A DNA stretch of 64,000 bases from Rhizobium sp. N324. Lineage in GTDB: Bacteria > Pseudomonadota > Alphaproteobacteria > Rhizobiales > Rhizobiaceae. Below, piece by piece: positions 3,618-18,096 of this stretch (the stretch's first letter is position 1; every line of letters starts with the position of its first letter). The stretch is taken from NCBI RefSeq assembly GCF_001664485.1, contig NZ_CP013630.1, positions 1,243,001 through 1,307,000 on the forward strand, written 5' to 3'. The notes under the pieces are model-generated. The model was not told where the DNA came from, ran no database searches, and worked only from the letters and a program-made list of their open reading frames with translations. Both the position numbers and the translations under genes were made by a program.

Positions 3618-4030
3618 TCGTCTCCGAACCGCGCGCGGAAATCGCCGCCTGGGTCGGCGACCGGATCGGCGTTTCCTTCCACCCGCCTTACACCACGCTT
3701 GCCCATGTCGACCACGGCCGGATTATTGCCGGCTTCGTCTTCAACGTCTGGACCGCCCATGACGTCGAGGTCTCGCTTGCCGCCGACCGGCTGACGCGGA
3801 CGCTGATGCGATCGGTCTATCACTATGTCGTGCATCAGCTCGGCTGCCGGCGCGCAACCGCCAGGACACGGGCCGACAATATCGACGCCCAGACGATGCT
3901 CGCCAGGCTCGGCGCCCGGCTGGAAGGCCGCCAGCAGGCCTATTTCGGCGACTGCGACGGCCTGCTTTACGCAATCATGAAGGAGGATTTCCCCTATGGT
4001 CTCCACGCCGAAGGCCCCGAAGGCGCCTGA
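3614..4030 (+). CDS. Phage-encoded GNAT-like acetyltransferase
   Basis: A 138-residue protein using a TTG start at 3614 that overlaps the preceding stop codon (TTGA). No ATG lies in a suitable place, so translational coupling decides the start. The C-terminal half has the GNAT pattern: the helix LMRSVYHYVVHQLGCRRATA, then RADNIDAQTMLARLGARLEG, corresponding to the conserved N...L..LG..EG region near the acyl-CoA site. Proteins of this kind occur among virion genes in several proteobacterial phages; their substrate is not known. The ribosome-binding site of the next gene lies inside its 3' end. Confidence 0.7.
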   Translation: MIVSEPRAEIAAWVGDRIGVSFHPPYTTLAHVDHGRIIAGFVFNVWTAHDVEVSLAADRLTRTLMRSVYHYVVHQLGCRRATARTRADNIDAQTMLARLGARLEGRQQAYFGDCDGLLYAIMKEDFPYGLHAEGPEGA

Positions 4031-5000
4031 TCCGACACAGACCGCGGCGGCCCAGACGGCCACCAACGTCGACACCGCCATCGCCAATGCGGGCCTCAGC
4101 CACACCAACCAGTACACGCCGGATGGTTCGCTGGAATACAAGGTCAGCGGCTACCAGACGATGAAGGACCAGACCGGCAAGACTTACCAGCTGCCGACCT
4201 ATTCGGCCTATCAGACCTATTCGCCTCAGAACCAGGCGATCTACGACCAGACGCAGCAGACCCAGCTCGGCCTTGCCAGGCTCGCCAACGACCAGACCGG
4301 CAAGATCTCCGGCATTCTCGGCACCAACGTCGATTTGAGCGCCGGCAATGTCGACAAATATGTCAACAATCACTGGCAGTCCGGCTTCAACAACCAGTGG
4401 GATCGCGACCAGGCGAGCCTTGATCAGAGCCTGGCCGACAAGGGCATCTCGATGGGCTCGGCGGCTTACGACAACGCCATGCGCGATTTTTCCACCCGCA
4501 AGCAGGCCGCCTCCGACCAATATCTCGGCGACATGTATTCGAATGCGCAAAACGCCATCCTGACCGAGCGCAACCAGCCACTGAACGAAATTTCGGCGCT
4601 GATGTCGGGATCGCAGGTCCACCAGCCGAGCTATGTCAACACGCCGACGACGCAACTGCCGAACGTCGACCAGGCCGGGCTGATCAATGAGAACTTCAAC
4701 CAGAAAATGGGCCTCTACGACCGCCAGGTCGCCCAATCCAACGCCGCGATGGGCGGCCTTTTCGGGCTCGGCGGAACACTCCTTGGCGGCTGGGCGAAGT
4801 CCGACCGGCGGCTGAAGGAGGACATCAAACGCGTCGGCACGCTGGATAACGGCCTGCCTGTTTACGCCTACCGCTACAAGGACGGCGGCCCGACCCAGAT
4901 CGGTTTGATGTCCGACGATGTGCGCGAGACCCATCCGGACGCCGTGTTCGAACACGCCGACGGTTTTGACCGCGTCTTCCACGAAAGGGCAGTGGCATGA
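3996..5000 (+). CDS. Virion protein with C-terminal S74-type intramolecular chaperone domain
   Basis: A 334-residue protein with a strong ribosome-binding site (AAGGAGG at 3979-3985) before the ATG at 3996. Most of it is Gln/Asn/Thr/Ala-rich and helical. After a Gly-rich hydrophobic stretch (GGLFGLGGTLLGG) come SDRRLKEDIKRVGTLDNGLP and the phrase IGLMSDDVRETHPDAV. These are hallmarks of the S74 chaperone domain that helps trimeric fibres fold and is often autocleaved at the conserved SDxRxK serine. The domain usually follows a fibre shaft, but here the preceding part looks like an internal or connector protein. The next gene overlaps by ATGA. Confidence 0.75.
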   Translation: MVSTPKAPKAPDPTQTAAAQTATNVDTAIANAGLSHTNQYTPDGSLEYKVSGYQTMKDQTGKTYQLPTYSAYQTYSPQNQAIYDQTQQTQLGLARLANDQTGKISGILGTNVDLSAGNVDKYVNNHWQSGFNNQWDRDQASLDQSLADKGISMGSAAYDNAMRDFSTRKQAASDQYLGDMYSNAQNAILTERNQPLNEISALMSGSQVHQPSYVNTPTTQLPNVDQAGLINENFNQKMGLYDRQVAQSNAAMGGLFGLGGTLLGGWAKSDRRLKEDIKRVGTLDNGLPVYAYRYKDGGPTQIGLMSDDVRETHPDAVFEHADGFDRVFHERAVA

Positions 5001-5302
5001 TCCCAACCATCTTCGCCGGCAATACCGGCAGAACCCAGGGCGACATCGACGACAAGCGCAAGCAGCTGGCCTACGCCATGCTGGACCAGGGCATGGATGC
5101 GAGCCCGGTGCAATCCCCCTGGCAAGGAGCGGCGCGGCTGGCGCAGGCCCTGATGGGCGGGCTGGCGATCAGGCAGCAGGATCAGGAGCGGCAGGCTGCT
5201 GCGGCCAAGGATCCCGTGGCGCCGCCGGGCGTGCCTGCCACTCCGCCGGCGAAGCCCCCCGGCTTCCTGTCGTCGTGGTTCGGCGGCCAGCGCAGCGAAT
5301 AG
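4997..5302 (+). CDS. Small phage protein, unknown
   Basis: A 101-residue protein translationally coupled to the preceding gene through an ATGA overlap at 4997. Its N-terminal two thirds are helical (KRKQLAYAMLDQGMDASP, then ARLAQALMGGLAIRQQDQER); the C-terminus is a Pro-rich linker ending in FLSSWFGGQRSE. No membrane segment or known motif is evident. Co-translation with the S74-domain protein suggests a virion or assembly role. The unit ends here, and about 150 non-coding bases follow before the ejection-protein gene. Confidence 0.6.
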   Translation: MIPTIFAGNTGRTQGDIDDKRKQLAYAMLDQGMDASPVQSPWQGAARLAQALMGGLAIRQQDQERQAAAAKDPVAPPGVPATPPAKPPGFLSSWFGGQRSE

Positions 5303-5457
5303 CACTTGGGCTTTGGCTGTCTACAATTGAGCCAGCACTCTCAGTTCGGCCTCCTTGGTCACTTCCGCTCAATCGGCCCGTCCGCAGTTAAGATAGTCGT
5401 CAACAAGCGGTCGCCCGGAAACCTTCATATCGATTCCGAAATCTACAGGAGCCCTTG

Positions 5458-7380
5458 ATGTCAAATTTTAAAGAAGCCCCGGCATTGAAAAAAATGCCTC
5501 GCCTTGTGGTCGACCCCAATGTGGGGCAGTCCGGCGGCCTCTCGATCGACGATGTCATTCGCGCTATCGGCCGCGGTGGTATCCTTACCGACCTCTATCC
5601 GGATGAGATGGAGTCTGGGACGGGTGCAGCGGCGGCGTCGTTGGATTCGAATCCGGAGGTAGTTCAGCAGCCGTCGACCTCAATAGACATGTTGAGGTCG
5701 ACCGGCGCGCAGGCAGGACAGAAGCGCGAGCATACTCCGTTCGAAAAGGTGGTCACCGGAGAGCCGCAGTCTCCTCAAGCACCTTCGGTCGCGGGTGATA
5801 TGGCCAAGAGCTTCGGCAGTGGCCTTGTCCGCGGCGCCACGGAACTAGTCATGCTCCCAGTGACCGCAAAACGGCTCATGGAGCAAGGTTCGGAATACGT
5901 CTACAACCAAGGTATAGATCTCGGTCGATCCGCCCTCGGTATGCCGCCGGTGAGTGACGAATGGAAAGCCAAAGTCCAGCAAGCCAAGGAGGCCATGAAC
6001 CGGTTCAATTTTGATAACGCCATCTACAGCGGCCAGGACGCCGTTCGTGGCGTGATGGACGACAATCTGTATGCGCCAAAAACGACGCCGGGCAAGTATG
6101 CCCAAACTGCGGGGGAGTTCGTTCCAGGCGTTCTTGTCGGCGGCGGTGGCAATCTGCTGACGAACGCCGTCAAATATGGCGTCGTCCCAGGGGTTGCCAG
6201 CGAGGCCGCCGGCCAAGCAACGGAAGGCACGAAACTGGAGCCATACGCTCGCCTCGTCGGCGCGCTTCTCGGTGGCGGTATTATCCCGGCTGGAGAACGT
6301 TTGATTACACCGCTGCCAGTTTCCGCCGAACGGCAGATGCTGAATCAGACGCTCAAGGACGAAGGGATTGATGTGTCGGGGGGGCAGGCGTCTGGCAGTG
6401 TCACCTTACGCAATGCTGAAGGCGACCTTGGCGGCGGAGCGGCGCAAGAATTCAACGGACGGCAGGGCGACCAATTCACCCGCGCAGCACTTGCTCGTGC
6501 AGGCATCAACGCGGACCGCGCCACGCGTGACGTTATGGTTGAGGCAGGGACGCGCATCGGCGATGGTCTGGATATGCTGGCGGCCAATCACAGCCTGATC
6601 CCTGATCAGCAGCTCGTCGACGACATCACGACTGCCATGGGCAGCTACAATAGTGTTACGGGGGAAGGCGCGCGTGCGCCGCTCCTCAAGAATTCGGTAG
6701 TTGATATTGCACGTCTGGCGAACGGTGAAACCTACAAGGCGGTCCGCTCTCGACTTGAAGATGCGCAAGCGCGTAGCTGGAACGATCCGAAGCTTTTGGA
6801 AGCGTTGTCGGGGATCCGCAACGCAATGGATGATGCCATGGAGCGATCGATTGCGGCGCAGAACCCGAACAGCTTGAGCGGGTGGCAGGAGGCAAAGCGT
6901 CAGTACCGCAACTTTCTGGATCTGGAAAAGGCCGTCGCCGCTGCGGGCGGGGACGCTTCGAAAGGCATCATCTCTCCATCGCAACTGCAGAGCGCCACGA
7001 GACCGCAGAGCCCTCGCGCGCTCGCCCAAGAGGATGGGGATTTCACCGCCCTGGTAAAGGCAGGGGAAGAGGTCCTCAAACCGCTTTCCAGTTCCGGTGG
7101 CTCACCGGTGCGCAGTGTTATCCAAAAAGGCATTCCCGCTCTTGTTAGCGCCGTCGCTGGCCATAAGTTGGCTGGCGGTCATGGAGCAATGCTCGGCGCC
7201 ATAGCCGGCGGCGCTGTCCCCTATGCGGCCGGAAGAATTCTTTTGTCTTCCCCGGTTCGCGCCTACCTCCAGAACCAACTGATCCAGCCCACGCGTCTAA
7301 CTAACCCGCGGGTCGCTGCGCTTGCTCAAGCCCTTCTTTCGCAGCAAGCCGCTCAAGGGCAGCAACAACCAACTCGGTAG
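5458..7380 (+). CDS. Probable phage internal virion / DNA ejection protein
   Basis: A 640-residue protein. The ATG at 5458 has AGGAG 6 bases upstream; a TTG just before it is less likely. Features include a Pro/Ser/Gln-rich N-terminus, an Ala/Gly-rich amphipathic region around residues 95-290 (FVPGVLVGGGGNLLTNAVKY, LVGALLGGGIIPAG), long helical stretches, and a Gly/Ala-rich hydrophobic segment near the C-terminus (GAMLGAIAGGAVPYAAGRIL). This fits large podovirus proteins ejected with DNA. Base composition looks less GC-rich than the flanking phage genes. Its last 116 bases recur in diverged form at 12929-13043, beyond the glycan cassette. Confidence 0.6.
   Translation: MSNFKEAPALKKMPRLVVDPNVGQSGGLSIDDVIRAIGRGGILTDLYPDEMESGTGAAAASLDSNPEVVQQPSTSIDMLRSTGAQAGQKREHTPFEKVVTGEPQSPQAPSVAGDMAKSFGSGLVRGATELVMLPVTAKRLMEQGSEYVYNQGIDLGRSALGMPPVSDEWKAKVQQAKEAMNRFNFDNAIYSGQDAVRGVMDDNLYAPKTTPGKYAQTAGEFVPGVLVGGGGNLLTNAVKYGVVPGVASEAAGQATEGTKLEPYARLVGALLGGGIIPAGERLITPLPVSAERQMLNQTLKDEGIDVSGGQASGSVTLRNAEGDLGGGAAQEFNGRQGDQFTRAALARAGINADRATRDVMVEAGTRIGDGLDMLAANHSLIPDQQLVDDITTAMGSYNSVTGEGARAPLLKNSVVDIARLANGETYKAVRSRLEDAQARSWNDPKLLEALSGIRNAMDDAMERSIAAQNPNSLSGWQEAKRQYRNFLDLEKAVAAAGGDASKGIISPSQLQSATRPQSPRALAQEDGDFTALVKAGEEVLKPLSSSGGSPVRSVIQKGIPALVSAVAGHKLAGGHGAMLGAIAGGAVPYAAGRILLSSPVRAYLQNQLIQPTRLTNPRVAALAQALLSQQAAQGQQQPTR
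7265..7380 (+). repeat. Direct repeat R1, left copy (3' end of ejection gene)
   Basis: This is the intact end of the ejection-protein gene, encoding QNQLIQPTRLTNPRVAALAQ and a short tail. It pairs with 12929-13043, where the same stretch is clearly recognisable at DNA level, including shared runs such as CAGCCCACGCGTCTAACT. Together with the pair 7419-7540 / 13237-13359 it brackets the glycan cassette. Confidence 0.85.
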
Positions 7381-7418
7381 CGTACCACACCAGCAGTCGT
7401 TTCGCCCGGAGAAGGCCA

Positions 7419-7540
7419 ATGCCCAGAAACCCATCAACCGGCGTCTATTCCAAACTCGTCGGAACGACCCCTTCCGTGGCCAGGTCATAGATCCGGCGCC
7501 ATGGAACGCGCTGACGACCGATCTCGGTAACGAAATCAAC
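7419..7540 (+). pseudogene. Truncated, frameshifted 5' end of a second tail fibre gene
   Basis: The stretch begins ATGCCCAGAAACCCATCAAC and follows the start of the intact fibre gene at 13237-13359 for about 120 bases, with scattered silent-type changes. One base is missing in the region encoding TTPSVGQV relative to the intact copy, so the frame runs into TAG after 23 codons. Similarity ends near 7540. It is preceded by CGGAGAAGGCCA, the remains of a ribosome-binding region. It lies just after the ejection gene, the position a fibre gene would normally occupy. Confidence 0.85.
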
Positions 7541-7587
7541 GCCGAGCCGGATTTGCCTCTACGCAAAACGGGGTCAGCTTTAGCCGG

Positions 7588-7881
7588 CTATAGCTTACTT
7601 GATACTGCCTGTTGATTTGACGTCGTCAACTTCATCGCGATAGCGGCGGTATCAAGAAAGGCAAAGGCCGCAATCAAAGGTATATTTTTCACAGCGAAAA
7701 GCTTCGTTAAGGAAGTTTTCCAGCCGAAGCGCGCCTGCACAGCTCCTTGAAGGGAGTAAACCCAGATCAAAGGCGCCGGAAGACTGCGTTGGGATTCAAC
7801 AGCCAATCCCACCCTGTTCAGGAGTTCGGCCAAACGCTCAAAATTGTAGAGATTCAAGTGGCGCGGGAAATAGTATCCGCC
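7588..7881 (-). pseudogene. C-terminal remnant of a class I SAM methyltransferase
   Basis: The minus-strand frame encodes GGYYFPRHLNLYNFERLAEL, then LLNRVGLAVESQRSLPAP and two hydrophobic stretches before a stop at 7588. The phrase 'GGY..PRH.NL....L..L....G' is typical of the C-terminal part of polysaccharide-cluster methyltransferases. The SAM-binding half (the E.G.G.G loop) is absent: upstream of about 7881 the frame runs only through linker DNA and the end of the neighbouring FkbM gene. It therefore looks like a truncated gene at the distal edge of the cassette. Confidence 0.65.
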
Positions 7882-7906
7882 CCAGGCGCAACGCGCTCGA
7901 ACTGAG

Positions 7907-8770
7907 TTATCTCGCTTCCTTTGAGCTCTTGCTTCTAACCAGCACATTCATACCGCCACCTTCCGCTATCATCGCGCGTACCTTGTCGGCGTCTTCTGGC
8001 AGCTTCCTGCCGGAAGCCATTTCACCGATCTCGTAGCCGCCCTCCCAGAGAAGCTTCAACAAGCTGTCGAAGTCTCCGGGATTCTCGGCGTAAACATACG
8101 GGGCCAATTCAAGCATTATCCGCGGCTGGAACTTTTTAAGAGTCACCGTCGCCCCAAGTAGAACCGCCAGCTCATTGCCGTCGACGTCAAGTTTTATGAA
8201 ATCGACCTTGCCGACCCCTAGATCCCGCAGTGTTTCGTCCACTGTGCCGAGCCGCGCGCCCTGTGTCGACATGAGACGACCGTGGTGTTCGCTATGCAAA
8301 TCTTCAGCAACTTCGAGCGGCCAGCTTGAATAGACCGCTTCGGGCATCGCTTCGGACGCACTTGCCATCAGCATCATCTGGTGGGCGTCGATTCGCTGGG
8401 CGAGCGTCGGGTTGAGCGCAATATTGGCTTTCTGTTTCGCGAATGCATGAGCCGTCGGCTCGAAGGAGATTACCCTGCCGGCTCCGCCCACCAATTGCGC
8501 CAGAGGCAGCGTATGAGAACCCACATTGGCGCCGATATCGAGGACGATGTCTCCATCCCCGATCAGCTCTCTATACCTATCGAGCGTTCTGACCTCGAAC
8601 CCACCCAATAGGTAAATCGCGAAATCAACGCCGTCTCTCAGGTCCAGCGACCAATTTATTCCCCGGCGTTTCGCGATCACGGTGGCGGGTAGGCCAACGC
8701 AACCCCGGACGAACAACACCGCTTTAGATAGAGAGCGAGCGATCAGGATTTTGTTGCTGGTGGATAACAT
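7907..8770 (-). CDS. FkbM-family methyltransferase (second in cassette)
   Basis: A 287-residue SAM-dependent methyltransferase. Visible motifs are the SAM loop VLDIGANVGSHTLPLA, the acidic loop VISFEPTAHAF, and FIKLDVDGNELAVLLGA, together diagnostic of the FkbM fold, whose members often O-methylate sugars or surface glycans. I chose the ATG at 8770, 16 bases after the stop of the upstream gene; an in-frame ATG at 8824 would overlap that gene by 38 bases. The gene belongs to a tightly packed minus-strand operon with a glycosyltransferase and a flippase-like protein, pointing to glycan modification. The acceptor cannot be deduced. Confidence 0.88.
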   Translation of the reverse strand: MLSTSNKILIARSLSKAVLFVRGCVGLPATVIAKRRGINWSLDLRDGVDFAIYLLGGFEVRTLDRYRELIGDGDIVLDIGANVGSHTLPLAQLVGGAGRVISFEPTAHAFAKQKANIALNPTLAQRIDAHQMMLMASASEAMPEAVYSSWPLEVAEDLHSEHHGRLMSTQGARLGTVDETLRDLGVGKVDFIKLDVDGNELAVLLGATVTLKKFQPRIMLELAPYVYAENPGDFDSLLKLLWEGGYEIGEMASGRKLPEDADKVRAMIAEGGGMNVLVRSKSSKEAR

Positions 8771-8786
8771 TGTCCGCACGTCGCCT

Positions 8787-9536
8787 TTAAGTGATATTGG
8801 GATGGGCAGGCGCTCTTCTTGCAACGATCAGATTGCAATATTGGCCCGCGTTTTCTGGATCGAGGCTCTCGTCATTGAAAGCAGTGCCAGGTGGATCCGC
8901 AATGTTATGGAACTCGAAATTCAGCATCTTTAGGAATTGGGTGAGCTCGGACGGCTTCACTGACGCTTTCGACAAACCGTAAGGCCAGAACTCCATGAAG
9001 ACCCGAATGTCGCGGTTCTCTCGCAGCACCCGCTCGGCACCCTGCAGAACGCTCAACTCGTATCCCTGAACATCGATTTTGATAAAATCGACCCGTTGCC
9101 CTGGCGAAAAGTAATCGTCCAGCTTCACCAATGGGACGTCGATGCTCACTCGCCCGTCGCCGCTATCGAATGTTCGGTGATCGACATTCAGCTCGGCCGA
9201 AACATACAGCCTTGTGGTGCCGCTGGCCGCTCCGACCGCGGCGTGCCGCAGCGATACATTCGACAAGCCGGTTGCCGTCGCTTCAAGCTTTTCGAAATTC
9301 GCCGGCGCCGGCTCGAAGGCATGCACATGGCCGGTCGCTCCCGTCAGAGCGGAGAACATACGGGTATATATTCCGATATTTGCACCGATATCTGCGACGA
9401 TCATGCCCGGCGAAAGCATCTCGCGCATCAGTGCGCGCTCACGTCGTTCTGAAACTGCCTTCCATACGGAATAGAGAGGGTAATAAAGGGGATAACAGTG
9501 TCGATAGAGCCAATCGGCGAGACGCAGCAAAGCCAT
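8787..9536 (-). CDS. FkbM-family methyltransferase (first in cassette)
   Basis: A 249-residue SAM-dependent methyltransferase with the SAM loop MIVADIGANIGIYTRMFSA, acidic loop HVHAFEPAPANFEKL, and FIKIDVQGYELSVLQGAERV, the standard FkbM set. It shares the fold and motif order of the next gene (7907-8770) but the two are well diverged, so they are not a recent tandem duplication. It starts 2 bases after the preceding methyltransferase stop, implying translational coupling. A role in methylating a surface sugar is inferred from the glycosyltransferase and membrane protein encoded upstream in the same operon. Confidence 0.9.
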   Translation of the reverse strand: MALLRLADWLYRHCYPLYYPLYSVWKAVSERRERALMREMLSPGMIVADIGANIGIYTRMFSALTGATGHVHAFEPAPANFEKLEATATGLSNVSLRHAAVGAASGTTRLYVSAELNVDHRTFDSGDGRVSIDVPLVKLDDYFSPGQRVDFIKIDVQGYELSVLQGAERVLRENRDIRVFMEFWPYGLSKASVKPSELTQFLKMLNFEFHNIADPPGTAFNDESLDPENAGQYCNLIVARRAPAHPNIT

Positions 9537-9538
9537 CC

Positions 9539-10321
9539 CTACACCTCTTCTTTTGACGTGAGGCGGGCCGTGAAGAATGAGGCGAACACCTTGGGCAGCG
9601 CGGCGCCTATTGCTTTGTCGAGCTTGAAGTAAGGCTTATAAGCCCAACCAGGCACAGGAAACTTCCTCGATATCCCGCCGGTCACCATATAGGAGAGCGA
9701 GGTGAAATAGCTGATCCTCGTCTTCTCGAGGCTATAGCAATCCGTAAGCTCAGCGAGCCAGTCCGGCCGCTGAAAGAAGATCATATGTGGCATAGCCTGA
9801 TTTGAGGTCGAAAGAGGACCCTGAACGGTATCCAGAACCGGGCGGCGGATACTGAAATCCACCGGCTCATGATGGAGAAGTTTATACATCGGGTAGGATA
9901 GCCAGGACAAATAGGGTTCCGTCACATACACCCTGCCGCCCTTTGTGAGCTTTCGCGTTGCTCCGCGGAGGAACGCAAGGGGATCCTTCAGGTGATGCAG
10001 AACATTGGTCATCGTAATCACATCGACGCTATGATCCGGAATGTCAGGCAAGCTCGCGATCTCGTGGCAATCGAAGACAAAGTCCAAATAGTCTAACTTC
10101 AGCACATCGGAGGTGATGACATTCGGTAAGAAGCGCTTAAGCGGCGACGTTCCGCTCCCGATTTCCAGAACGGTATTCGTGGCAATATCCGGTTCCTGCC
10201 GAAACATCTCCTGGTAGAGCTCACCATACCAGTGCATCAGGTTCGGATTTGCGCTTAGCCGCGTGCGATTTGCCAGCGTCTGAGCAAGATCGGCCTCATA
10301 GAGAGCGCTTTCAGATTTCAT
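9539..10321 (-). CDS. Class I SAM-dependent methyltransferase
   Basis: A 260-residue protein starting MKSESALYEADLAQTLANR; this ATG lies 2 bases after the glycosyltransferase stop, so I prefer it to an upstream ATG at 10390. It carries the SAM loop TVLEIGSGTSPLKRFLPNV, an acidic motif (DFVFDCHEIASLP), and the downstream VDVITMTNVLHHLKDPLAFL typical of Methyltransf_11-type enzymes. The C-terminal third is aromatic-rich, including RKFPVPGWAYKPYFKLDK, and may contact a lipid or membrane. Neighbours suggest that a sugar or lipid-linked intermediate is the substrate. Confidence 0.85.
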   Translation of the reverse strand: MKSESALYEADLAQTLANRTRLSANPNLMHWYGELYQEMFRQEPDIATNTVLEIGSGTSPLKRFLPNVITSDVLKLDYLDFVFDCHEIASLPDIPDHSVDVITMTNVLHHLKDPLAFLRGATRKLTKGGRVYVTEPYLSWLSYPMYKLLHHEPVDFSIRRPVLDTVQGPLSTSNQAMPHMIFFQRPDWLAELTDCYSLEKTRISYFTSLSYMVTGGISRKFPVPGWAYKPYFKLDKAIGAALPKVFASFFTARLTSKEEV

Positions 10322-10323
10322 CG

Positions 10324-11655
10324 TCAGAGAAACTTTATACGTCTTGCCGCAAAAACCAGCATGGCCAACAGGATGGCACCGTGGCGCCAACGCGAGATGT
10401 TCGTTTCACCGTAGAGTCTTTCACGATAGCTGATCGGAACCTCGACGATCTTAAGGCCCATCCGCGCGGCACCGAAGATCAGGTCGAAATCGCCAAAGGG
10501 ATCGAAATCACCGAAGTAGGATCGGTTTGCCTGAAGCTTCAGATAGTTGGAGCGGCTGATCACCTTGGTTCCGCATAGGGTGTCCTTGTATCTCTGGCCA
10601 AGAACGAAGGAGAAAGCCAATGCGAAAAACTTGTTGCCCAGGAGGTTGAAGAAACGCATGGCCTCCTTTTCCATGGGATAGACCAAGCGAGTGCCATTGA
10701 TGAACTCGCCTTTCCCGTCCTTGATGGCATTGTAGAATTTCGGCAAATCCTCGGGCGGGACCGTCATGTCCGCGTCGAGAATCATCAAGACTTCCTTTGT
10801 GGCTAGCGAAAAACCCTTCCTGACGGCATCGCCTTTACCCTTGCCGTCTTGCTGGGCAATCAGGATGGTGCGTTCGCCGCCATAACGCTGTTGCGCTTCC
10901 TGGATCGCCTTCCACGTCGCGTCGGTTGAATTGCCTTCGACAAAAATGAGTTCATCATCCGGCCCCATAACCGGCAACCGTTTGACAATATCCTCGATAT
11001 TTCCTGCCTCGTTTCTCGCTGGAACTACAATTGACACCGACGGCTCCGCCTTCGACGCGGCATCGCCGATCGGCCTCGCAATCGCGATGTTGAGAAGGCA
11101 GAGAGTTCGAAGAAGCGGAAGAGGAGCAAGGCAGCGGTTAACAAAGCCACTGATAAGCGGGATGTAAACCGGGATCAGGATCTTCTGGTCCAGTCGTATC
11201 AATTCGAAGTCTTCGAGCGTCAAAAGATTCTCGATGTCTTCATGGGCAAGCCAATTCGATTCAGGAACCCGCCGGCGCAGACCGAGCTTGGATGCGAGAG
11301 TTGCAAGCGGCCGCCACAAGCTACTGTAATAGGTAAGGACAAGCCGTGTCTCTTGCGAACACAATGCACGTGCCTGAGCGAACATGCTCTGTATGTCTCG
11401 TTCGTAATGGATGAGGCCGCTGATGACCAGGTAATCAGGTTTGGTGTCAGCGACGTCTTCGATCTTGACGACCTTGTGCTCGTCAAACTCATTTACAGGC
11501 TCTGCAGCTTGTGTTCTCGAGCGAAACGCCACCTTGCCCTGAGGAAATTTGCCAACCAGAAGCGGCGTCGTCGGATCGATCTCGACCACGGAATTCTGGC
11601 CTAAGACGAACAGCCCAATGTATTTTCTCAAGAGAGAATAGAAATAATTCTTCAT
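10324..11655 (-). CDS. Glycosyltransferase family 2 with N-terminal methyltransferase-like domain
   Basis: A 443-residue two-part protein. Residues about 205-443 are a GT2 domain of the polyprenyl-phosphate type: SVSIVVPARNEAGNIEDIVK, the nucleotide-binding VEGNSTDAT, GKGKGDAVRKGF, the metal-binding DAD in MILDADMTVPPEDL, and a late FGDFDPFGDFDLIF / YRERLYGETNISRW acceptor region. Residues 1-200 resemble the degenerate methyltransferase-like domain fused to such transferases in polysaccharide loci (DYLVISGLIHYERDIQSMFA), without a clear SAM glycine loop. A short hydrophobic C-terminus (ILLAMLVFAARRIKFL) may anchor it. It probably loads a sugar onto a lipid carrier at the inner membrane. Confidence 0.85.
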   Translation of the reverse strand: MKNYFYSLLRKYIGLFVLGQNSVVEIDPTTPLLVGKFPQGKVAFRSRTQAAEPVNEFDEHKVVKIEDVADTKPDYLVISGLIHYERDIQSMFAQARALCSQETRLVLTYYSSLWRPLATLASKLGLRRRVPESNWLAHEDIENLLTLEDFELIRLDQKILIPVYIPLISGFVNRCLAPLPLLRTLCLLNIAIARPIGDAASKAEPSVSIVVPARNEAGNIEDIVKRLPVMGPDDELIFVEGNSTDATWKAIQEAQQRYGGERTILIAQQDGKGKGDAVRKGFSLATKEVLMILDADMTVPPEDLPKFYNAIKDGKGEFINGTRLVYPMEKEAMRFFNLLGNKFFALAFSFVLGQRYKDTLCGTKVISRSNYLKLQANRSYFGDFDPFGDFDLIFGAARMGLKIVEVPISYRERLYGETNISRWRHGAILLAMLVFAARRIKFL

Positions 11656-11659
11656 AGAG

Positions 11660-12646
11660 TTACCTCGGCGCCAAGCGGTTCAAGCGCCAATGTCCCAGGA
11701 TGAGGGCTGCAGGCACGACATAGACGACAAAAAAGAGAAAATGAACGGCCGTTGCCAGGAGCAGCCCCTCCGACGGCGAACGCCCTAGCAATACGAATGC
11801 CGAAACGACGGATGCATGGAAGGTGCCGACTCCGGATGGCGCAGCTGGGATCATCAGGCCCAACCCGCCGGCAAACAACATGAACAACGATTCTTGATAA
11901 CTCAGCGCGATGCCGACAAAACGGGCGACGAAGATATACGCAAGGGCGTATGCCGAAAGCCACAAAGCGAGTGTGAGAAAGGCCGGAACGATAGTCACGG
12001 ACAGAGTTAAGCTTCGTGCGGAATTTCGGATAAAAGCAATAACGTGACGGTCAAAGAAATCCTGACGTCGCAGGAGACCGAAGACAGGTCGCAATATCGG
12101 GACAAGCCGATCGCCGAAATTCCTTATCAGAACTGCCGATAGAAATATCCCAACCAATGCACTAAGCATGATGACCAAAAGAACATTTCGGTATTCGGAA
12201 TTCAATGTATGACTCAGTAAAACCAAAGAAAATATGCCGACCGAAATGATCGTCACCAGGTCAACCATCTTTTCGACCAGAAGCCTGCCAAGAGCTTCTC
12301 CGTAGGGGACAGTCGCGACAACTCGGCTGTAATGTACACGCAAGAGGTCTCCGCCTCTCGCAGGAAGGAACATGTTGGCGCCCAGGCCGAGTAGGGAGGC
12401 CATGAGGGAGGTTCCGTAACCGATCTTGCCATCCAGCAACAGGCGCCATCGCACCGCATAAGCTGCAGCGATACCGAAGGTAACAAGCATAAACCACAGG
12501 AGCGATGTGACGGATATTCCGCTACGAAAAATGCGGATGGCTTCTTCCCAATCCACCGCCCTTAGCAGGAATATCAGGAGGACAAGGCTTATTGCGGAAG
12601 CTATAAGCATCTGCAGGCGTTGATGATTGAAGAGGCCAGTTGTCAC
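11660..12646 (-). CDS. UPF0104 / LPG-synthase-TM-like multispanning membrane protein (possible glycolipid flippase)
   Basis: A protein of about 328 residues with seven or eight hydrophobic helices. Family signatures are RWRLLLDGK, the loop GLGANMFLPARGGDLLRVHY, and AAPSGVGTFHASVVSAFVLL, all typical of the AglD2/UPF0104 (lysylphosphatidylglycerol synthase TM) family, proposed to flip or transfer lipid-linked substrates. The frame is open to 12763, but a GTG at 12646 places the first helix shortly after the start as in relatives; this choice is uncertain. It is the first gene of the cassette operon and is followed after 4 bases by the glycosyltransferase. Confidence 0.78.
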   Translation of the reverse strand: MTTGLFNHQRLQMLIASAISLVLLIFLLRAVDWEEAIRIFRSGISVTSLLWFMLVTFGIAAAYAVRWRLLLDGKIGYGTSLMASLLGLGANMFLPARGGDLLRVHYSRVVATVPYGEALGRLLVEKMVDLVTIISVGIFSLVLLSHTLNSEYRNVLLVIMLSALVGIFLSAVLIRNFGDRLVPILRPVFGLLRRQDFFDRHVIAFIRNSARSLTLSVTIVPAFLTLALWLSAYALAYIFVARFVGIALSYQESLFMLFAGGLGLMIPAAPSGVGTFHASVVSAFVLLGRSPSEGLLLATAVHFLFFVVYVVPAALILGHWRLNRLAPR

Positions 12647-13236
12647 GTTTTCTGATGTTCTCTTTCGAAGCCGCGCCGACTTTAAACCGCAAGTGTCTAC
12701 TCGGATCGCTGCCCCTAACATATCACAACAATCAGGGGCAACCCCGAGACCTCTTCCTTTCACAGGAGTTGCAGTATGGCGACAGAGCTGCTCTCGGTCC
12801 GTGGCCTGCTGCCTTTTGATTCAGGGGCAATTGGGCCAGCCGCGCCTTTGCGAAGCGGTTTTCTAAATCAATCACTGTCGTCAGCAAGAGCAAAAATCCC
12901 GCCGCTCTATGCTTGGTATTTATCTCCCACCTCGCGAACCAACTGGTTCAGCCCACGCGTCTAACTGACCCACGGATGGCCGCGCTTGCTGAAGCTCTTC
13001 TTTCGCAAACGCCGCTCAGGTCAGGCAACAACCAAATCAGTAGGCAGCATGCCAGCAGGCCACCGATAAAAGGAACGGCGGTTCCTTTGACGTCCGAGGA
13101 GAGCTGCGGTCAGCAGCCCGAAAAGGTGGGCCTCTCACAGAGTGTCTCCATCCGCCAGTGGAGAAGAAACAGAGTGCAACTCATTTTATTCGAGTGCATT
13201 GCGGCAACAATCAACCCCTTCTTTCGGAGCAGGTAA
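12647..13236. other. Non-coding junction between glycan cassette and tail fibre gene
   Basis: Apart from the repeat remnant at 12929-13043, I see no convincing gene here. The cassette promoter, reading to the left, must lie in about 12647-12900. Bases 13044-13236 lead to the fibre gene and have no counterpart in the left junction, where only 38 bases separate the equivalent two gene ends. Between 13075 and 13100 there is an imperfect hairpin (GGAACGGCGGTTCC). Confidence 0.6.
12929..13043 (+). pseudogene. Remnant 3' end of a second ejection-protein gene (direct repeat R1, right copy)
   Basis: About 115 bases that reproduce the end of the ejection gene (7265-7380) with numerous substitutions. 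In frame it encodes NQLVQPTRLTDPRMAALAEA followed by LLSQ, against NQLIQPTRLTNPRVAALAQA in the intact gene, and a TAG falls at the equivalent place after a small indel. The rest of the gene is missing; the DNA upstream (12764-12928) is unrelated. It lies just upstream of the intact fibre gene, so it should be the end of this phage's original ejection gene. Confidence 0.85.
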
Positions 13237-14574
13237 ATGCCCAGAAACCCATCAACCGGCGTCTATTCCAAACCCGCCGGCACGACACCCTCTGTCGGCC
13301 AGGTCATCGACCCGGCGCCGTGGAACGCGCTGACCACCGACCTCGGCAACGAGATCACCAATTCGCTGCCGCGCGACGGCTCGGCGCCGATGATCGCGCC
13401 GCTCAAGGCGGCCGGCGGAACCGTGTCCGCGCCGGGTGTCGGCTTCGCCTCGAACCCGCAGACCGGCGTCTATCTGAAGGGCGGCGGCCTGCTCGGCTTT
13501 GCCCAGAACGGCGTCGATGTCGCGTTCGATCAGGATCTGGTCTATGCGGCCAAGTCTGGCGATTACACCGCGCTCGCATCCGACGATAATGCTATCCATC
13601 GCTTTACCGCGGCGGCCACGCTCACGCTCACCGCCGCGGCCACGCTCGGCGCAAACTGGCACATCAAGGTGATCGCCGACGGCGGAGACGTGACGGTTGA
13701 TGCGAACAGCTCGGAGACGATCGACGGAGCCGCAACGCTCATCATTCCAAACGGCTATAGCGCTCTCATCATCTGCGACGGATCGGCGTTCTATACCGAC
13801 AAAATCATATCGCTCTTCCAGGCGATCACCTTCGGGCAATGCCGGCTTTCTCTTTCCGGCGGGAATCTGCTGCTCTCGCGGTTCAATGGTTATTTCCTGA
13901 CCATCAACGGGAAGCACTATTCCATCCCGTCCGCCGGCGTGACCCTCGCACCATCCGGCCTGACTCCAGCCACCCTCTATTACATCTACGCCTACATGAA
14001 CTCGGGCACGATGACGCTGGAAGCCTCTGCAACGGCCTCTGCGGTAGACAGCACGACCGGCATCCGCATCAAGAACGGTGATGCGACGAGAACCCTTGTC
14101 GGCATGGCGCGCCCCGTAACGGGTCCTGCATGGTCTGACACGTTGGCGCAGCGCTTCGTGCGGTCATGGTACAACGAGCCTACCCTCGTCATGTTCAACA
14201 ACTTCACGGCCAATCGGACGACGACAAACACATCTCTCACGGAACTCAATACCGAGATTCGCAACGAATTTTTGCTCTGGACTGGTGAGTACGTCGAAGC
14301 CACTGGAGCCGGTTCGTCGATCAATGGCACGTCGAACGGAGGAACAAAATCCTCAATCGCTTTCGACGGCGCCCCCCCTGAGCCGTCTGGGTTCGTTGCA
14401 ATTATGGCCAATTCAGACGCAACAGCCTTTAGCACCCAGGCCGTCAAAAGCGGCCTTTCGGAAGGATACCACTATCTCACGCTTGTCTGCGCTGTGCAGG
14501 GTTCTGGCACTGGCATCTGGTATGGCGATTTCGACGGTCGGCGCACATCTATTAAATCAAGGATTTCACGATGA
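13237..14574 (+). CDS. Phage tail fibre / receptor-binding protein
   Basis: A 445-residue beta-rich protein starting MPRNPSTGVYSKPAGTTPSV after GGAGCAGGTAA. The N-terminus has the short attachment-type repeats seen in rhizobial phage fibres (APGVGFASNPQTGVYLKGGG then LLGFAQNGVD), followed by a stretch of small residues (HRFTAAATLTLTAAATLGAN) and a DGSAFYTD motif. The C-terminal half is diverse and probably binds the receptor. Its stop overlaps an ATG (ATGA at 14571), coupling it to a now broken hydrolase gene. A diverged partial copy of its first 120 bases lies at 7419-7540. Confidence 0.78.
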   Translation: MPRNPSTGVYSKPAGTTPSVGQVIDPAPWNALTTDLGNEITNSLPRDGSAPMIAPLKAAGGTVSAPGVGFASNPQTGVYLKGGGLLGFAQNGVDVAFDQDLVYAAKSGDYTALASDDNAIHRFTAAATLTLTAAATLGANWHIKVIADGGDVTVDANSSETIDGAATLIIPNGYSALIICDGSAFYTDKIISLFQAITFGQCRLSLSGGNLLLSRFNGYFLTINGKHYSIPSAGVTLAPSGLTPATLYYIYAYMNSGTMTLEASATASAVDSTTGIRIKNGDATRTLVGMARPVTGPAWSDTLAQRFVRSWYNEPTLVMFNNFTANRTTTNTSLTELNTEIRNEFLLWTGEYVEATGAGSSINGTSNGGTKSSIAFDGAPPEPSGFVAIMANSDATAFSTQAVKSGLSEGYHYLTLVCAVQGSGTGIWYGDFDGRRTSIKSRISR

Positions 14575-15060
14575 CGTTAAAAGTTACTCCCGGCACCGGC
14601 ATTCGCGTGTTCGGAAACAGTTTCGCGTGCCCAGGTACGGCTGCATTTGGAATGACCTATGCAGACCGGCTAGGGATTTTGTCGGCGGTGGCACGGAAAA
14701 CCGCGCAATAGCTGGTGAAGGGACGAGAGCAACCACCCAGCAAGGCTATTCCTTTAACCCCTATAGTTCGCGCGCGAAGCCGGTCACATGGGATTGCATG
14801 CTCAACGATATCTGCCGTTATGGCGTCGATGCATTCCCTGCCGTAGGCCCATCACTCGATGTTTTCTTGTCGTCGGCATTTGCCGGCATGGCGCGTCCAG
14901 CCTCATATCCTCAGGTGATCAAACAGGGGCATGGTCTCCGCTCGGGAATACTTACGGCGGGAAAGCGTCGTTTTCAGTGGCGCATCAGCCATGTACACAA
15001 ACCGATGTCAACGCCAGCTATCGCTAACCTTCACGGCTGATCAGATCGCTGTCTGCGCAA
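14571..15060 (+). pseudogene. Frameshifted SGNH/GDSL hydrolase gene after the tail fibre
   Basis: A frame starting with the ATG coupled to the fibre stop encodes GIRVFGNSFACPGTAAFGMT then YADRLGIL and stops at 14709-14711. The reading then continues sensibly in another frame with GGGTENRAIAGEGTRATTQQ and VTWDCMLNDICRYGVDAF, and near the end in a third frame (TYGGKASFSVAHQPCTQTDV). The VFGNS block, the N.A..G and DxxLNDI patterns look like an SGNH hydrolase that needs at least two frameshifts to read through. I interpret it as an inactivated esterase accessory to the fibre; alternative start sites do not restore an intact frame. Confidence 0.6.
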
Positions 15061-15213
15061 GTCGGCGTGCTCCATGGGATGAACAACAAGCGCGTTGCAA
15101 TAACAGCGATTGCTGCAGCCACCAGGACATTGTGTGAGCGCATGATCGTTCCCCTTTGCCATCCCCTCCCGCAGCGAAAGCGGGACTGACCTCTTCCACA
15201 AACTGGAGCCCCC

Positions 15214-15426
15214 ATGCGCCTTGTAAAGCACAAGCGCCGCGTACTCGCGCGGTCGCTATCGATGTGGTGCGTCTATGCCGCCGGCTTTCTGGAGGTCGTG
15301 CCGTACATCGTCCCGTATCTGGACGACTGGATACCGAAATGGCTGTCCATCCTCTTCCTGGCGGCATCTCCGATCGCTCGCCTTATTCACCAGCCGGCCC
15401 TCAAGGAAAACGACAATGACAGGTAG
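15214..15426 (+). CDS. Holin-like small phage membrane protein
   Basis: A 70-residue protein starting MRLVKHKRRVLARSLSMWCV. A basic N-terminus is followed by two hydrophobic stretches (about 15-33, WCVYAAGFLEVVPYIVPYL, and 42-58, WLSILFLAASPIARLI) separated by DDWIPK. The gene overlaps the endolysin start by 11 bases and is followed by spanins, the standard lysis-module order, so holin is the best interpretation. Similar small proteins occur in many rhizobial prophages. Experimental function is unknown. Confidence 0.7.
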   Translation: MRLVKHKRRVLARSLSMWCVYAAGFLEVVPYIVPYLDDWIPKWLSILFLAASPIARLIHQPALKENDNDR

Positions 15427-15880
15427 GATGAAAAAGGGCAGCGCGGTTGCCGCGGCTGCTGTGGCGCTTGTCGGCAGCTTCGAAGGGCTTCGCCAGAATG
15501 CCTATCCCGATCCTGCCACAAAGGGACAGCCGTGGACGATCTGTTACGGCAGCACCAATGGCGTGAAGCCTGGCGACCATAAGACGGTGGAGCAGTGCAA
15601 GGCGCTGCTGGCGCTGGAGCTGAAGACCTATGCGCGCGGCGTCGAAAGCTGCGTGCGCGTGCCGTTGCCGGATGCGCGTTTCGTGGCGTTGACCTCGTTC
15701 GCCTATAATGTCGGCGTCACGGCGGCCTGCGGCTCGAGCGCGGTCAGGCTGATCAACCAGGGCAGGACGGCCGAGGGCTGCGAGGCGCTGTTGAAGTGGA
15801 ACCGCGCGGCCGGCATCACCTTTCCGGGCCTCACCCGGCGCCGGCAGAAAGAGCGCGCCTTCTGCCTCGAGGGCATCTGA
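15416..15880 (+). CDS. Phage lysozyme (GH24 endolysin)
   Basis: A 154-residue endolysin cleaving the MurNAc-GlcNAc bond of peptidoglycan. The GH24 active-site region is visible: SFEGLRQNAYPDP with Glu23 and Asp32, then PWTICYGST with Thr41, and later RFVALTSFAYNVG. The Ala/Val-rich stretch at residues 9-20 may act as a signal-arrest-release segment that exports the enzyme without a cleavable signal peptide. The ATG at 15416 has AAGGAA 8 bases upstream; an internal ATG at 15428 is an alternative. It overlaps the holin-like gene upstream and the i-spanin gene downstream (TGATG). Confidence 0.92.
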   Translation: MTGRMKKGSAVAAAAVALVGSFEGLRQNAYPDPATKGQPWTICYGSTNGVKPGDHKTVEQCKALLALELKTYARGVESCVRVPLPDARFVALTSFAYNVGVTAACGSSAVRLINQGRTAEGCEALLKWNRAAGITFPGLTRRRQKERAFCLEGI

Positions 15881-16242
15881 TGTTCTCCCTGCTCGACACG
15901 CTCAAGATGGGCGCCGGCATCGCCGCCGGCCTGGTGCTCTATCACCTCTATGCCGTTTCGATCGGCTATCCCTCGGCCGCCCGGCAGGCGCGGACCGGCT
16001 ATGTCATATTGGCCGAAAAGAGCGCAGCCGATGCGCGAGCCGCCGAGATGGAGCGCCAGCGCAATGCGGCGTCCCAAGCCACCGAAGAGCACCGCAAGCG
16101 CCTGGCAGCCGCCGAAGCCTCAGAGCAGGCGGCCAGAGACACCCTGGAAACCGAGATCCAATCCTATGAGCTTCAGCTTTCCGAGAAGAACCGCGCTTGC
16201 GCTGTCACTGCTGCTGATCGTCAGTGGCTGCTCCGCCACTGA
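15880..16242 (+). CDS. Rz-like inner-membrane spanin subunit
   Basis: A 120-residue protein with a single N-terminal membrane segment (about residues 8-28, KMGAGIAAGLVLYHLYAVSI) followed by a long Ala/Glu/Arg-rich helix (ADARAAEMERQRNAASQATE and beyond), the layout of i-spanins. These span the periplasm with an outer-membrane partner and fuse the membranes at the last step of lysis. Its start overlaps the endolysin stop by 1 base (TGATG). The partner gene begins inside this one in another frame, the classical Rz/Rz1 arrangement, which strongly supports the assignment. Confidence 0.8.
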   Translation: MFSLLDTLKMGAGIAAGLVLYHLYAVSIGYPSAARQARTGYVILAEKSAADARAAEMERQRNAASQATEEHRKRLAAAEASEQAARDTLETEIQSYELQLSEKNRACAVTAADRQWLLRH

Positions 16243-16474
16243 GCGGCTGAACAGGGCGGCAGTGACGAAGGGGCAGGCGGCGGCCGGCATGGTGCTGCCG
16301 CCCTTGCCCGATGATCTCCGCCGGCAGGAAGCGCATGCGCCTGTCGTAGAAGGCGAGTCCGTCACCGCCGTCCTCGCCCGCGAGCGCCAGGCGCTCGACC
16401 GCGCCAATGCCCGCCAGGGGCGCACCATCCGCTTCTACGACGACCTCATCACCAGATATGGAGCCCGCCGATGA
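16166..16474 (+). CDS. Rz1-like outer-membrane spanin lipoprotein
   Basis: A 102-residue lipoprotein that begins within the i-spanin gene in the +2 frame and continues past its end. MSFSFPRRTALALSLLLIVS is a signal peptide ending in the lipobox IVSGC with Cys22 as the lipidation site. The mature part carries a short Pro-containing stretch (MVLPPLPDDLRRQ), as Rz1 proteins often do, then a helical tail. The 77-base overlap with the i-spanin is typical of two-component spanins. Its stop overlaps the next start (ATGATGA). Confidence 0.82.
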   Translation: MSFSFPRRTALALSLLLIVSGCSATERLNRAAVTKGQAAAGMVLPPLPDDLRRQEAHAPVVEGESVTAVLARERQALDRANARQGRTIRFYDDLITRYGARR

Positions 16475-18096
16475 TGAACGCCATTTCGCTTGCCCTGACA
16501 AATCCGAGGGGTGGAGCTGTTCTGGCGCCACCGCCTTGGGTGCCGGATCCTGATCGCTACATGCCGGCGGCGACGCGCACGCGCTGGCCGACCGGCGCGA
16601 CCGCCACGCCATGGACGTTCCCGGCCGGGCTGAATTACCAATGCTCCAAGCTGTTCTTCGGCGCGCCCGACTATCCGACGAACGACTTCCTTATCCCGTT
16701 CGTCGGCTTCGCGCTGACCGAAGGCGGCAATGCGCCGCAAGAAACGCAGTCGCCGAACGCCGACACCGTGATCGACGAGGCGTTCTTCGTGATGCCCAAC
16801 GGCACGGAATACCCGATCTTGTTTGGCGGTCTGGTGCCGGCGACGGTCACCGCCGCAACCGGCATTGTTTACGGGCAGGTCATACTGCCAGTTGCTCTGC
16901 CGGCATGGTCGATCTTTGGCGTCCGGACGGTCTATCACGGCGCAGAGGGTGCGCAGCGCTGCGGCTCCTATCGCATCCAGCGCCATCGCGGCGAAAAGTA
17001 TTGGGGCGCGGCCGACTTGGCGTCTGTACAGGCGCTGGCGGCCGCCAACGGGGCGTCGACGGCGGCGCTCGATCCTGACAGCCTTTACAACACGATCGGC
17101 AACGCGACCAATTCGCAGATCCAGGCTTACGGGCCCGCGCTTGTCCTGGCGAAAGGATGGGACGGCCGGCCGGTTCCACTCGTCGTCGGTGACAGCCTGA
17201 TCGAGCGGCAGGAGATCGCCGCGTCGGCCGACGAGCGCGGCAACATGGGCATGATACGGCGATGGCTCGACCAGCGCGACCAGGTTTGGGGGAGCACTGT
17301 CCCGCTCGTCATGGGCGTGCCTGGTGAGCATAACGAATTCGAGCTTGCCACCAACGCTACCAAGCGATGGGTGATGATCGACGCCATCAAGACGACGTTC
17401 AACGGCGGCAAAGACATTTGGACTTTCTGCCTCGACCAGGGCGGCCGCAACGACAACAACACGACGCTTTCGCTCTGGCAGTCGCGCAAGTTCGGGCTCG
17501 ATGATCGGATCATCGCCCGGTATCCCGGCGCGCATATGGTGGGCATGACCATTCTGCCGACCATGGCGGGATCGTCGGATAGCGGCCGCACGGTCGCCGG
17601 CTACAGCGCGACGTCGGCGCTGTGGAACCCGGTCACGGGGACGCTCGCCAGCATGAACGCGTCACTCATCGCGTCGTCGCGGTTCGCCAAGACGATTGAT
17701 ATCGTGCCGGCCTTCATGTCGGACAGTGATCCGACGAAGGGATCGGCGGCCGAATTGACGCCGCTCGGCAACGTCATCGGCCATCCCGGCAACCAAGATG
17801 GCGTGACGACATGGGACACGATGCGCCTGCCAAGCACGACGAAGCTCGGTGCGCGCGTCATGTTCGAATATCAGCCTGGACTCTGGACCAGCCGGACGCT
17901 CGTAGACCGAACGGATTTGGGAGACGGCACGGCGAACTACCGCGTCGCCGAAGTGCTGGCGACCAACGTGCAGGATAACGCCGCCCTGCTCGGCCACGCC
18001 TATACGGCTGCCGATTTCGTTCACCCGGCTCTCTACGGCGTCCTGCGTTTCGTCAGCCGCCTGCCTCAAACGCACAAGGCAAAGTTCTATCCATGA
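16471..18096 (+). CDS. Phage SGNH/GDSL-type hydrolase-like protein
   Basis: A 541-residue protein. Residues 1-230 are a beta-rich region of unknown fold. A GDSL motif follows a beta strand at residues 240-243 (VPLVVGDSLIERQEIAA), and AADFVHPALYG near residues 513-522 supplies the Asp-x-x-His pair expected for the catalytic triad of SGNH esterases. Such domains on phage virions often deacetylate surface polysaccharide. The gene is coupled to the spanin operon by an ATGATGA overlap (start 16471, with an equally possible ATG at 16474) and to the next gene by ATGA. It may take over from the broken SGNH gene at 14571, but this is conjecture. Confidence 0.65.
   Translation: MMNAISLALTNPRGGAVLAPPPWVPDPDRYMPAATRTRWPTGATATPWTFPAGLNYQCSKLFFGAPDYPTNDFLIPFVGFALTEGGNAPQETQSPNADTVIDEAFFVMPNGTEYPILFGGLVPATVTAATGIVYGQVILPVALPAWSIFGVRTVYHGAEGAQRCGSYRIQRHRGEKYWGAADLASVQALAAANGASTAALDPDSLYNTIGNATNSQIQAYGPALVLAKGWDGRPVPLVVGDSLIERQEIAASADERGNMGMIRRWLDQRDQVWGSTVPLVMGVPGEHNEFELATNATKRWVMIDAIKTTFNGGKDIWTFCLDQGGRNDNNTTLSLWQSRKFGLDDRIIARYPGAHMVGMTILPTMAGSSDSGRTVAGYSATSALWNPVTGTLASMNASLIASSRFAKTIDIVPAFMSDSDPTKGSAAELTPLGNVIGHPGNQDGVTTWDTMRLPSTTKLGARVMFEYQPGLWTSRTLVDRTDLGDGTANYRVAEVLATNVQDNAALLGHAYTAADFVHPALYGVLRFVSRLPQTHKAKFYP

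Follow-up and report, generated by a model that had tools for sequence, protein, structure and literature searches.

A probable layered moron hotspot where ejection slot and tail fibre meet in a Rhizobium prophage

How can the border between two phage genes come to occur twice, once on either side of a block of unrelated genes, with one gene intact on the left and the other on the right? This question is raised by a 64,000-nucleotide stretch of Rhizobium sp. N324 (contig NZ_CP013630.1, positions 1,243,001 to 1,307,000), called the window here, in which a cassette of probable glycan-modifying genes stands between an ejection gene and a tail-fibre gene. The window sits on the 4.64-Mb contig G000:C1, G000 being its own genome, and as genes encoding a portal protein and the large subunit of a terminase lie to the left of its start, the region is the structural region of a prophage. 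The arrangement is best accounted for, with a probability of roughly two in three, by a layered history in five steps at a moron hotspot, a site between ejection slot and fibre where accessory genes (morons) were gained, lost and exchanged. The features concerned are the following, in window coordinates.

5455-7380, plus strand: intact ejection-slot gene of type EJ41, an open reading frame (ORF) of 641 amino acids with relatives in G069, G035, L152 and L157
7262-7396, plus strand: left-hand copy of the repeat from the 3' end of the ejection gene, 81.6% identical to 12926-13058
7407-7540, plus strand: truncated, frameshifted fibre 5' end, coding sequence of about 121 base pairs (bp) from the ATG at 7419, 87% identical to 13225-13357, with an in-frame stop and the same junction as in G056
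7541-7585: left cassette flank of type I, 45 bp, matching G056 (E 8e-9) and G107 (E 1e-3), which match each other with E 8e-7
7588-7947, minus strand: stump of the methyltransferase gene c12, the sixth cassette gene, whose ORFs in relatives have 316-378 amino acids
7907-8824, minus strand: FkbM-family methyltransferase (PF05050, E 1e-19; TIGR01444)
8787-9536, minus strand: FkbM-family methyltransferase (PF05050, E 5e-22; TIGR01444)
9539-10390, minus strand: class-I S-adenosylmethionine methyltransferase (PF13489, E 8e-10)
10324-11655, minus strand: GT2 glycosyltransferase (PF00535, E 9e-24; AglJ-like, TIGR04182 E 1e-32, below cutoff)
11660-12763, minus strand: membrane flippase-like protein (LPG_synthase_TM), the first cassette gene (PF03706, E 3e-36; TIGR00374)
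12799-12902: sequence found inverted on both sides of the membrane gene c13 in G104, G002 and G107, and on one side in G028
12835-13058, plus strand: 3'-terminal remnant of an EJ41-type ejection gene, a DNA repeat from 12926 and a protein match from about 12835
13059-13224: spacer; of 108 loci searched, none has it but the window, its copy L134, G017 and L135
13237-14574, plus strand: intact tail-fibre gene, an ORF of 445 amino acids (PHROG tail fiber, E 2e-4)
15275-15880, plus strand: phage lysozyme, downstream of the variable region (PF00959, E 1e-39)

When positions 1-20000 of the window were compared with themselves by BLASTN, both gene ends were found doubled in direct orientation, the fibre 5' end at 13225-13357 and 7407-7538 (87.2% over 133 bp, E 3e-40) and the ejection 3' end at 12926-13058 and 7262-7396 (81.6%, E 8e-28). 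The local alignment scores of 179 and 140, respectively, compare with maxima of 26 and 27 in 200 dinucleotide-keeping shuffles per pair, so that the similarity of both junctions, on which the original prediction from the letters of the window had been built, is significant and the doubled ends do bracket the cassette. Its description of the two sides also proved correct. On the left the ejection gene is whole and the fibre start, by a 1-base gap relative to the right copy, runs out of frame and into a stop; on the right the fibre ORF of 445 amino acids is open and of the ejection gene only the last part is present, which at the protein level reaches back to about 12835 and matches EJ41 residues 568-630 with 41% identity. 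The two repeats are 166 bp apart on the right and 10 bp on the left. With copies as diverged as these a recent tandem duplication can be dismissed, as had been predicted. The exact arrangement was seen only in the window and its 100% IMG/VR copy L134 among the loci examined, and thus is not a state shared by all related prophages. EJ41 itself matches a phage record annotated 'DNA injection protein' with 32% identity (E 2e-23, tblastn), its best match being a hypothetical protein with 39%. The N-terminal 196 or so amino acids of the fibre are common to most of the prophage family, and 57 IMG/VR loci encode a relative.

The original prediction had explained the doubling by one event, in which a donor segment with ejection gene, fibre start and cassette recombined into a related resident prophage. 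That related prophages recombined here is supported; the single event is not. The nearest sister, G017/L135, is 94% identical to the window backbone over 1074-5295 (L135 from 2031) and 96% from 15449 on, has the cassette from 7907 to 12763 with 95-99% identity per block, and has the right ejection remnant (88% in G017, 86% in L135) and the spacer (82-83%), yet its ejection gene is EJ23 and the left fibre remnant is absent. The cassette therefore goes with the backbone. The junction of the left fibre remnant is found in G056 as well, and this remnant is most readily explained as the trace of an earlier insertion, that of another moron. Two kinds of prophage that the prediction had proposed to look for do occur: G069 and L157 have the ejection gene joined straight to the fibre gene, and L135 combines the cassette with a different fibre (72% identity).

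Truncated fibre starts were found to be recurrent in the genus. Window positions 7200-7600 were searched in 148 genomes, of which 35 matched, and genes in the fetched regions were mapped by tblastn with the query protein set. An intact fibre start was present at 38 genus loci and 33 IMG/VR loci, with enough upstream sequence at 37 and 31 of them (too little of it was available for G068a, L160 and L171, which were left out); scoring was limited to four candidates per genome, so that locus numbers are lower bounds. Remnants were required to have at least 75% identity, plus strand and E<1e-9; a looser count was discarded, as it took in weak upstream matches, mostly of 60-68% identity, and one inverted. 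As moron only the TIGR04325-related methyltransferase described below or the cassette GT2 was counted. Truncated starts upstream of an intact fibre gene occur at nine of the 37 genus loci, with a moron in G007, G035, G056, G107, G020p, G018 and the window, and without one in G033 and G066. The genus loci divide into 7 with moron and remnant, 6 with moron only, 2 with remnant only and 22 with neither (Fisher p 0.004), and the IMG/VR loci into 6, 2, 1 and 22 (p 0.0002), figures which are to be taken as counts and not as probabilities because the loci are related and several IMG/VR loci, including L134, L163, L172 and L149, are copies of genus loci.

The gene that follows the remnant in G007, G035, G107, G020p, G018, L146, L152 and L156 encodes a methyltransferase of about 252 amino acids. 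The G007 protein, the one scanned, shows a relation to TIGR04325 with E 2e-16, its score of 60 staying below the cutoff of 80 for that model, and among phage records no protein match to this methyltransferase was found. Leader and methyltransferase in G007, G018, G020p, L146, L152 and G107 are 78-84% identical to those of L156 over at least 1,000 bp. Including L156 the unit is thus present in 7 distinct prophages behind four ejection genes: EJ23 in G007, EJ3 in L156 and G107, EJ41 in L152, and the G020p type in G018, G020p and L146. The fibre gene breaks off at +163 to +165 in the remnants of these seven and at +146 in that of G035. The contents of the ejection slot vary, comprising EJ41, EJ3, EJ23, EJ57, EJ78 and the G020p type. 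Comparison of filled with empty sites showed how the unit is placed. L156 (filled) follows L147 (empty) with 92% identity up to L147 position 10161 and again with 94% from 9957, the insert of 1,153 bp being flanked by a 205-bp duplication which begins some 44 bp upstream of the start codon of the fibre gene and runs to about +161; the start of this repeat is read as a putative terminator-like hairpin. G007 (filled) against G010 (empty) yields a 208-bp duplication of the fibre start around the same unit. In L161 only the start of the leader and the end of the methyltransferase are left between fibre remnant and fibre. The tag is no fixed rule: G071 and G037 have the methyltransferase with no remnant by the filter used (G037 has a stub), and in G008 it lies downstream of the fibre.

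The gene behind the remnants was at first taken for a second fibre ('fibre B'), as a 359-amino-acid ORF of G007 linked it to the fibre cluster; its sequence and the TIGR04325 match ruled this out and showed a methyltransferase following the fibre start in one open frame. This ORF (L039 9160-10239), which runs from the remnant into the methyltransferase without leaving the frame, could be due to chance or could encode a fusion protein. Two further fibre-start pieces were observed beside other methyltransferases. In G033 a remnant of about 81 bp stands before a different methyltransferase of 409 amino acids, downstream of the intact fibre (L040 11805-13052). In G039 only the first 115 bp or so of the fibre gene are matched before the methyltransferase-type gene c50 (L111 9260-9392), and no intact fibre start was found at that locus.

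The cassette comprises five main genes, encoding one GT2, one LPG_synthase_TM, two FkbM and one class-I methyltransferase domain; the GT2 domain lies within residues 205-407 of its protein, preceded by about 200 extra N-terminal residues. The rest of c12 (PF13489) and all of the desaturase-like gene c21 (PF00487; both domains scanned in G107) are missing at about 7890-7907, a scar common to the window and G017/L135. Long cassette matches adjacent to a fibre were found in the window, G017, G056, G068 (two contigs), G104, G002, G107 and G028, and any cassette match in 20 of the 148 genus genomes. In a family sample of 394 genomes, matches beyond G000 and G017 were all of 360 bases or less. Close relatives G069 and L157 lack the cassette and have intact flanks, as is expected of a moron. 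In G107 the ejection gene is followed by a fibre remnant, the methyltransferase, the cassette, c13 and the fibre, in this order; c13, a protein of 588 amino acids with nine hydrophobic stretches and no Pfam match, is present in some relatives only and absent from the window. In G104, G002, G107 and G028 the first cassette gene has, in frame, the opening codons of the TIGR04325-related methyltransferase as its own start, and it is preceded by the leader of that methyltransferase in the three sequences inspected (G104, G107, G028), in G028 behind an inverted fibre remnant and ejection 3' end. The start of the methyltransferase unit was thus also captured as a front end of the cassette. The window, G017, G056 and G068 have another front end, like that of apparently chromosomal copies in G020, G079 and G032 (L083, L084, L085).

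These apparently chromosomal copies have the same order as the prophage cassette (c12, c21, MTa, MTb, c8, GT2, c6) and 80-91% DNA identity to it in the methyltransferase and glycosyltransferase genes, but differ by an extra gene, c44, between c21 and MTa and by epimerase and GT2 genes alongside (checked in G020), and no phage query gene was found within the 20 kb examined around them. They are a likely source pool. Relatives of the GT2 gene with 70-76% identity in Burkholderia, Nitratidesulfovibrio, Alcaligenaceae and Legionellaceae suggest that this cassette type has been transferred widely. A megablast comparison of window 5000-14600 with phage records yielded no match; 14 records match the GT2 protein, all below 60% identity and none covering 80% of it, and 13 match the fibre, none covering 80%. 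A divergent cassette with 49-74% protein identity and c13 at its end was seen in G027 (L090 2041-6694) between the c9 gene and lysozyme, apparently downstream of the fibre.

For the window's own left end the G107 order is instructive. The left fibre remnant ends at about +121 and is followed by the 45-bp type I flank, a junction that G056 has as well; clear matches to this flank among the 108 loci are limited to L134, G056 and G107, and in G107 the ORF of the TIGR04325-related methyltransferase stands about 138 bp upstream of it. As the junction is shared with G056 and the flank adjoins the 3' side of the methyltransferase in G107, the simplest reading is that the left remnant would be the remainder of a unit of fibre remnant, leader and methyltransferase, from which the methyltransferase was deleted out of a G107-like order; L161 is an example of such decay. 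The adjoining c12 stump (7586-7896) is 91% identical to G056 and 86% to G017. Sites which separate G017 from G056 favour G056 by 27:10 in 7586-7878 and G017 by 266:84 in 7907-12600, and as the stump is G056-like while the deletion scar at its right edge is common with G017, a breakpoint must lie inside the stump. Left flank II, found in G017, L135, G104 and G002, is the DNA that follows ejection gene EJ3 in L156, L148, L139 and G019; as G017 has EJ23, its ejection gene has been replaced as well. The left end is of type I in the window, G056 and G107 and of type II in the four carriers of flank II, and the right end is of type A in the window, G017 and L135 and of type B in G107, G104 and G002. 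All four combinations exist, which indicates recombination unless one end arose twice; a right end C is found in G056 with left type I. The same contig carries another prophage of this family (G000:C1:2055884, L035), whose ejection gene is EJ78 and whose fibre is 73% identical; it is a possible recombination partner within the same cell.

The right ejection remnant is direct in the window, G017 and L135 and inverted in G028, and a shorter inverted piece is present in G104, G002 and G107. It derives likeliest from unequal recombination at the border of ejection and fibre genes, as is suggested by G033 and G066. In these two the ejection gene is followed by a fibre start of no more than 70 bp (G033) or 49 bp (G066), then by an interval and an intact fibre, with no cassette. 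The interval DNA is that just upstream of the fibre remnant in G018, G020p, L146 and L161; none of seven ejection proteins compared with it matched, and it proved to be flanking DNA only.

From these data the layered history can be outlined, in which the conserved start of the fibre gene would be the common joint for exchange of ejection genes, morons and fibre tips. The oldest step would be entry of the TIGR04325-related methyltransferase moron just upstream of the fibre, doubling the fibre start so that a truncated copy remained on the left and the intact fibre on the right. The cassette would then have been added downstream of the methyltransferase on the opposite strand, in the order found in G107. 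A deletion in an ancestor common to the window and G056 presumably removed the methyltransferase and left the fibre-start tag against the cassette end; here the shared junction is observed. Next, an ejection 3' piece, shared by the window and G017, would have been placed, by a putative route, between the cassette and the fibre gene in the line leading to these two, where two cassette genes were lost as well. Finally, window and sister would have diverged in the whole left end, namely ejection gene, remnant or flank, and cassette tip, with the breakpoint in the c12 stump.

Several observations weigh against this history. The order assumed for the second step is taken from one genome, G107, and the match of the flank to G107 is short (E 1e-3 among 108 loci, E 2e-5 among 33 loci with a longer query). 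No direct fibre remnant is present in six of the 13 genus carriers of a moron upstream of the fibre (G104, G002, G017, G028, G071, G037), so the fibre-start tag is not obligatory, and the remnant of G028 is inverted. The mosaic is not clean, with 19 sites like G017 and 13 like G056 in 7913-8315. The sister's left end is itself recombined and may have lost the left half, so that either lineage or both may have changed. For the cassette, which lies on the opposite strand, no promoter above chance was found.

The donor-segment explanation, by which the resident kept its own ejection 3' end and fibre in an unequal exchange, fits the geometry and the divergence of the copies (82% and 87%), and a comparable doubling of the junction with no cassette in G033 and G066 speaks for it, as does the changed ejection slot of G017, by which the missing left half may be secondary. 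It is nevertheless unlikely, because cassette, right ejection remnant, fibre start and backbone travel together in G017/L135, which lacks the left half, and because G056, with the same left remnant junction, has a different right side. Far less probable still is insertion by a mobile element, whose transposase or integrase would move the cassette or each moron, the repeats being target-site duplications. The two filled and empty pairs with near-equal duplications of 205 and 208 bp would suit such an element, but target duplications are usually far shorter, both pairs carry the same unit, so that equal length may be descent, the cassette ends differ between carriers, and none of the six minus-strand cassette proteins has a transposase or integrase domain in Pfam (five were also scanned with NCBIfam).

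Selection for the repeat is another explanation, according to which copies of the fibre start are kept as arms for homologous recombination in uptake, loss and exchange of morons and fibres. It can point to the single unit behind four ejection genes and to remnants in 7 of 13 genus moron carriers as compared with 2 of 24 other loci, but remains doubtful, since several remnants are decaying (window, G056, L161, G033, G066) and descent of one unit among loci that are not independent would give the same association. A related idea, which may be entertained tentatively, is that truncated fibre starts act as portable homology arms: because the fibre start, conserved as it is, could serve a remnant as partner for recombination in every related phage, tagged morons might be mobile with no mobility gene of their own, and receptor-masking genes and the receptor-binding fibre might be exchanged as a block or looped out cleanly, leaving a normal junction of ejection gene and fibre.

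Whatever the route, the layered history has a bearing on how such loci are read. Related prophages show stages by which genes that probably modify the surface can accumulate and be shuffled next to the receptor-binding gene while that gene stays whole, the insert having an intact fibre start at one edge and a truncated one at the other; paired junction remnants around a cassette need not record the arrival of that cassette. If the repeats are active, a single crossover could alter receptor recognition of the phage and the surface of the lysogen together. Judging from its GT2, flippase-like and methyltransferase domains, the cassette most likely adds sugar and methyl groups to the surface polysaccharide of the lysogen, which would be lysogenic conversion beside the receptor-binding gene. 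Downstream of the fibre, G069 has other sugar-type genes (DegT aminotransferase, WbqC, GT2, TylF-like), with similar blocks in G010, G014, G112 and G057, which fits a prophage family that modifies its host's surface. A sugar-type cassette with genes for a DegT aminotransferase, methyltransferase, WbqC, GT2, TylF-like protein and flavin adenine dinucleotide oxidoreductase was observed downstream of the fibre in several relatives (L036 12825-18852 and matching loci).

Gene 16 of phage P22 is an ejection gene. P22-like phages have an 'ant moron' interval between gene 16 and the tailspike gene 9, which like the locus in the window is a variable, moron-filled interval directly 5' of the receptor-binding gene, according to the passages on this site in the phage epsilon34 paper (PMC2629481). 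The window locus has the same position, between a weakly annotated ejection gene and a receptor-binding gene. In the same passages ten types in sixteen genomes are reported, including damaged genes as found here; the morons described are antirepressor and exclusion genes, in contrast to the probable surface-glycan enzymes of the window, and the damage described is that of moron genes, in contrast to the truncated receptor-gene starts seen here (PMC2629481). Resemblance to gtrABC seroconversion cassettes, as far as covered there, lies in a prophage glycosyltransferase together with a flippase-like membrane protein, expected to alter the surface polysaccharide (PMC2629481). The window differs in having PF03706/TIGR00374 instead of GtrA, several methyltransferases and a fibre-adjacent position. 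Compared with GtrB, its GT2 resembles AglJ and dolichyl-phosphate hexose transferases, below cutoff, and no GtrC-like membrane glycosyltransferase was found among its cassette proteins, c13 being present in some relatives only.

Among cultured rhizobial temperate phages, Rhizobium phage 16-3 has immX, with one ORF annotated as acetyltransferase, right after two tail fiber genes (NC_011103 annotation), and Sinorhizobium phage AP-16-3 has an FkbM methyltransferase (ORF 21); both resemble the window in accessory genes beside the fibre, in the portions of PMC10460002 concerned with these genes. Their genes are annotated as of siphovirus type (tape measure, tail tube), and the likeness to the window lies in gene position. 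A table footnote of PMC10460002 gives fibre gene h of S. meliloti ABS7 as full-length and truncated sequences. A moron-filled interval before the receptor-binding gene is already known from P22-like phages. No description of a recurrent truncated fibre start as a moron tag in Rhizobium prophages was found among titles and opening lines of abstracts in the open-access literature, which cannot prove its absence from print.

Two minor features lie outside the variable region. Rightward beyond the lysozyme gene an HtrA-like gene (19989-21560) is probably a host gene. Near the left end of the window, at 906-1024, there is an inverted-repeat element of 121 bp which is 79% self-complementary, with partial copies at 108-180 and 953-1022, and similar copies occupy the same place in several relatives.

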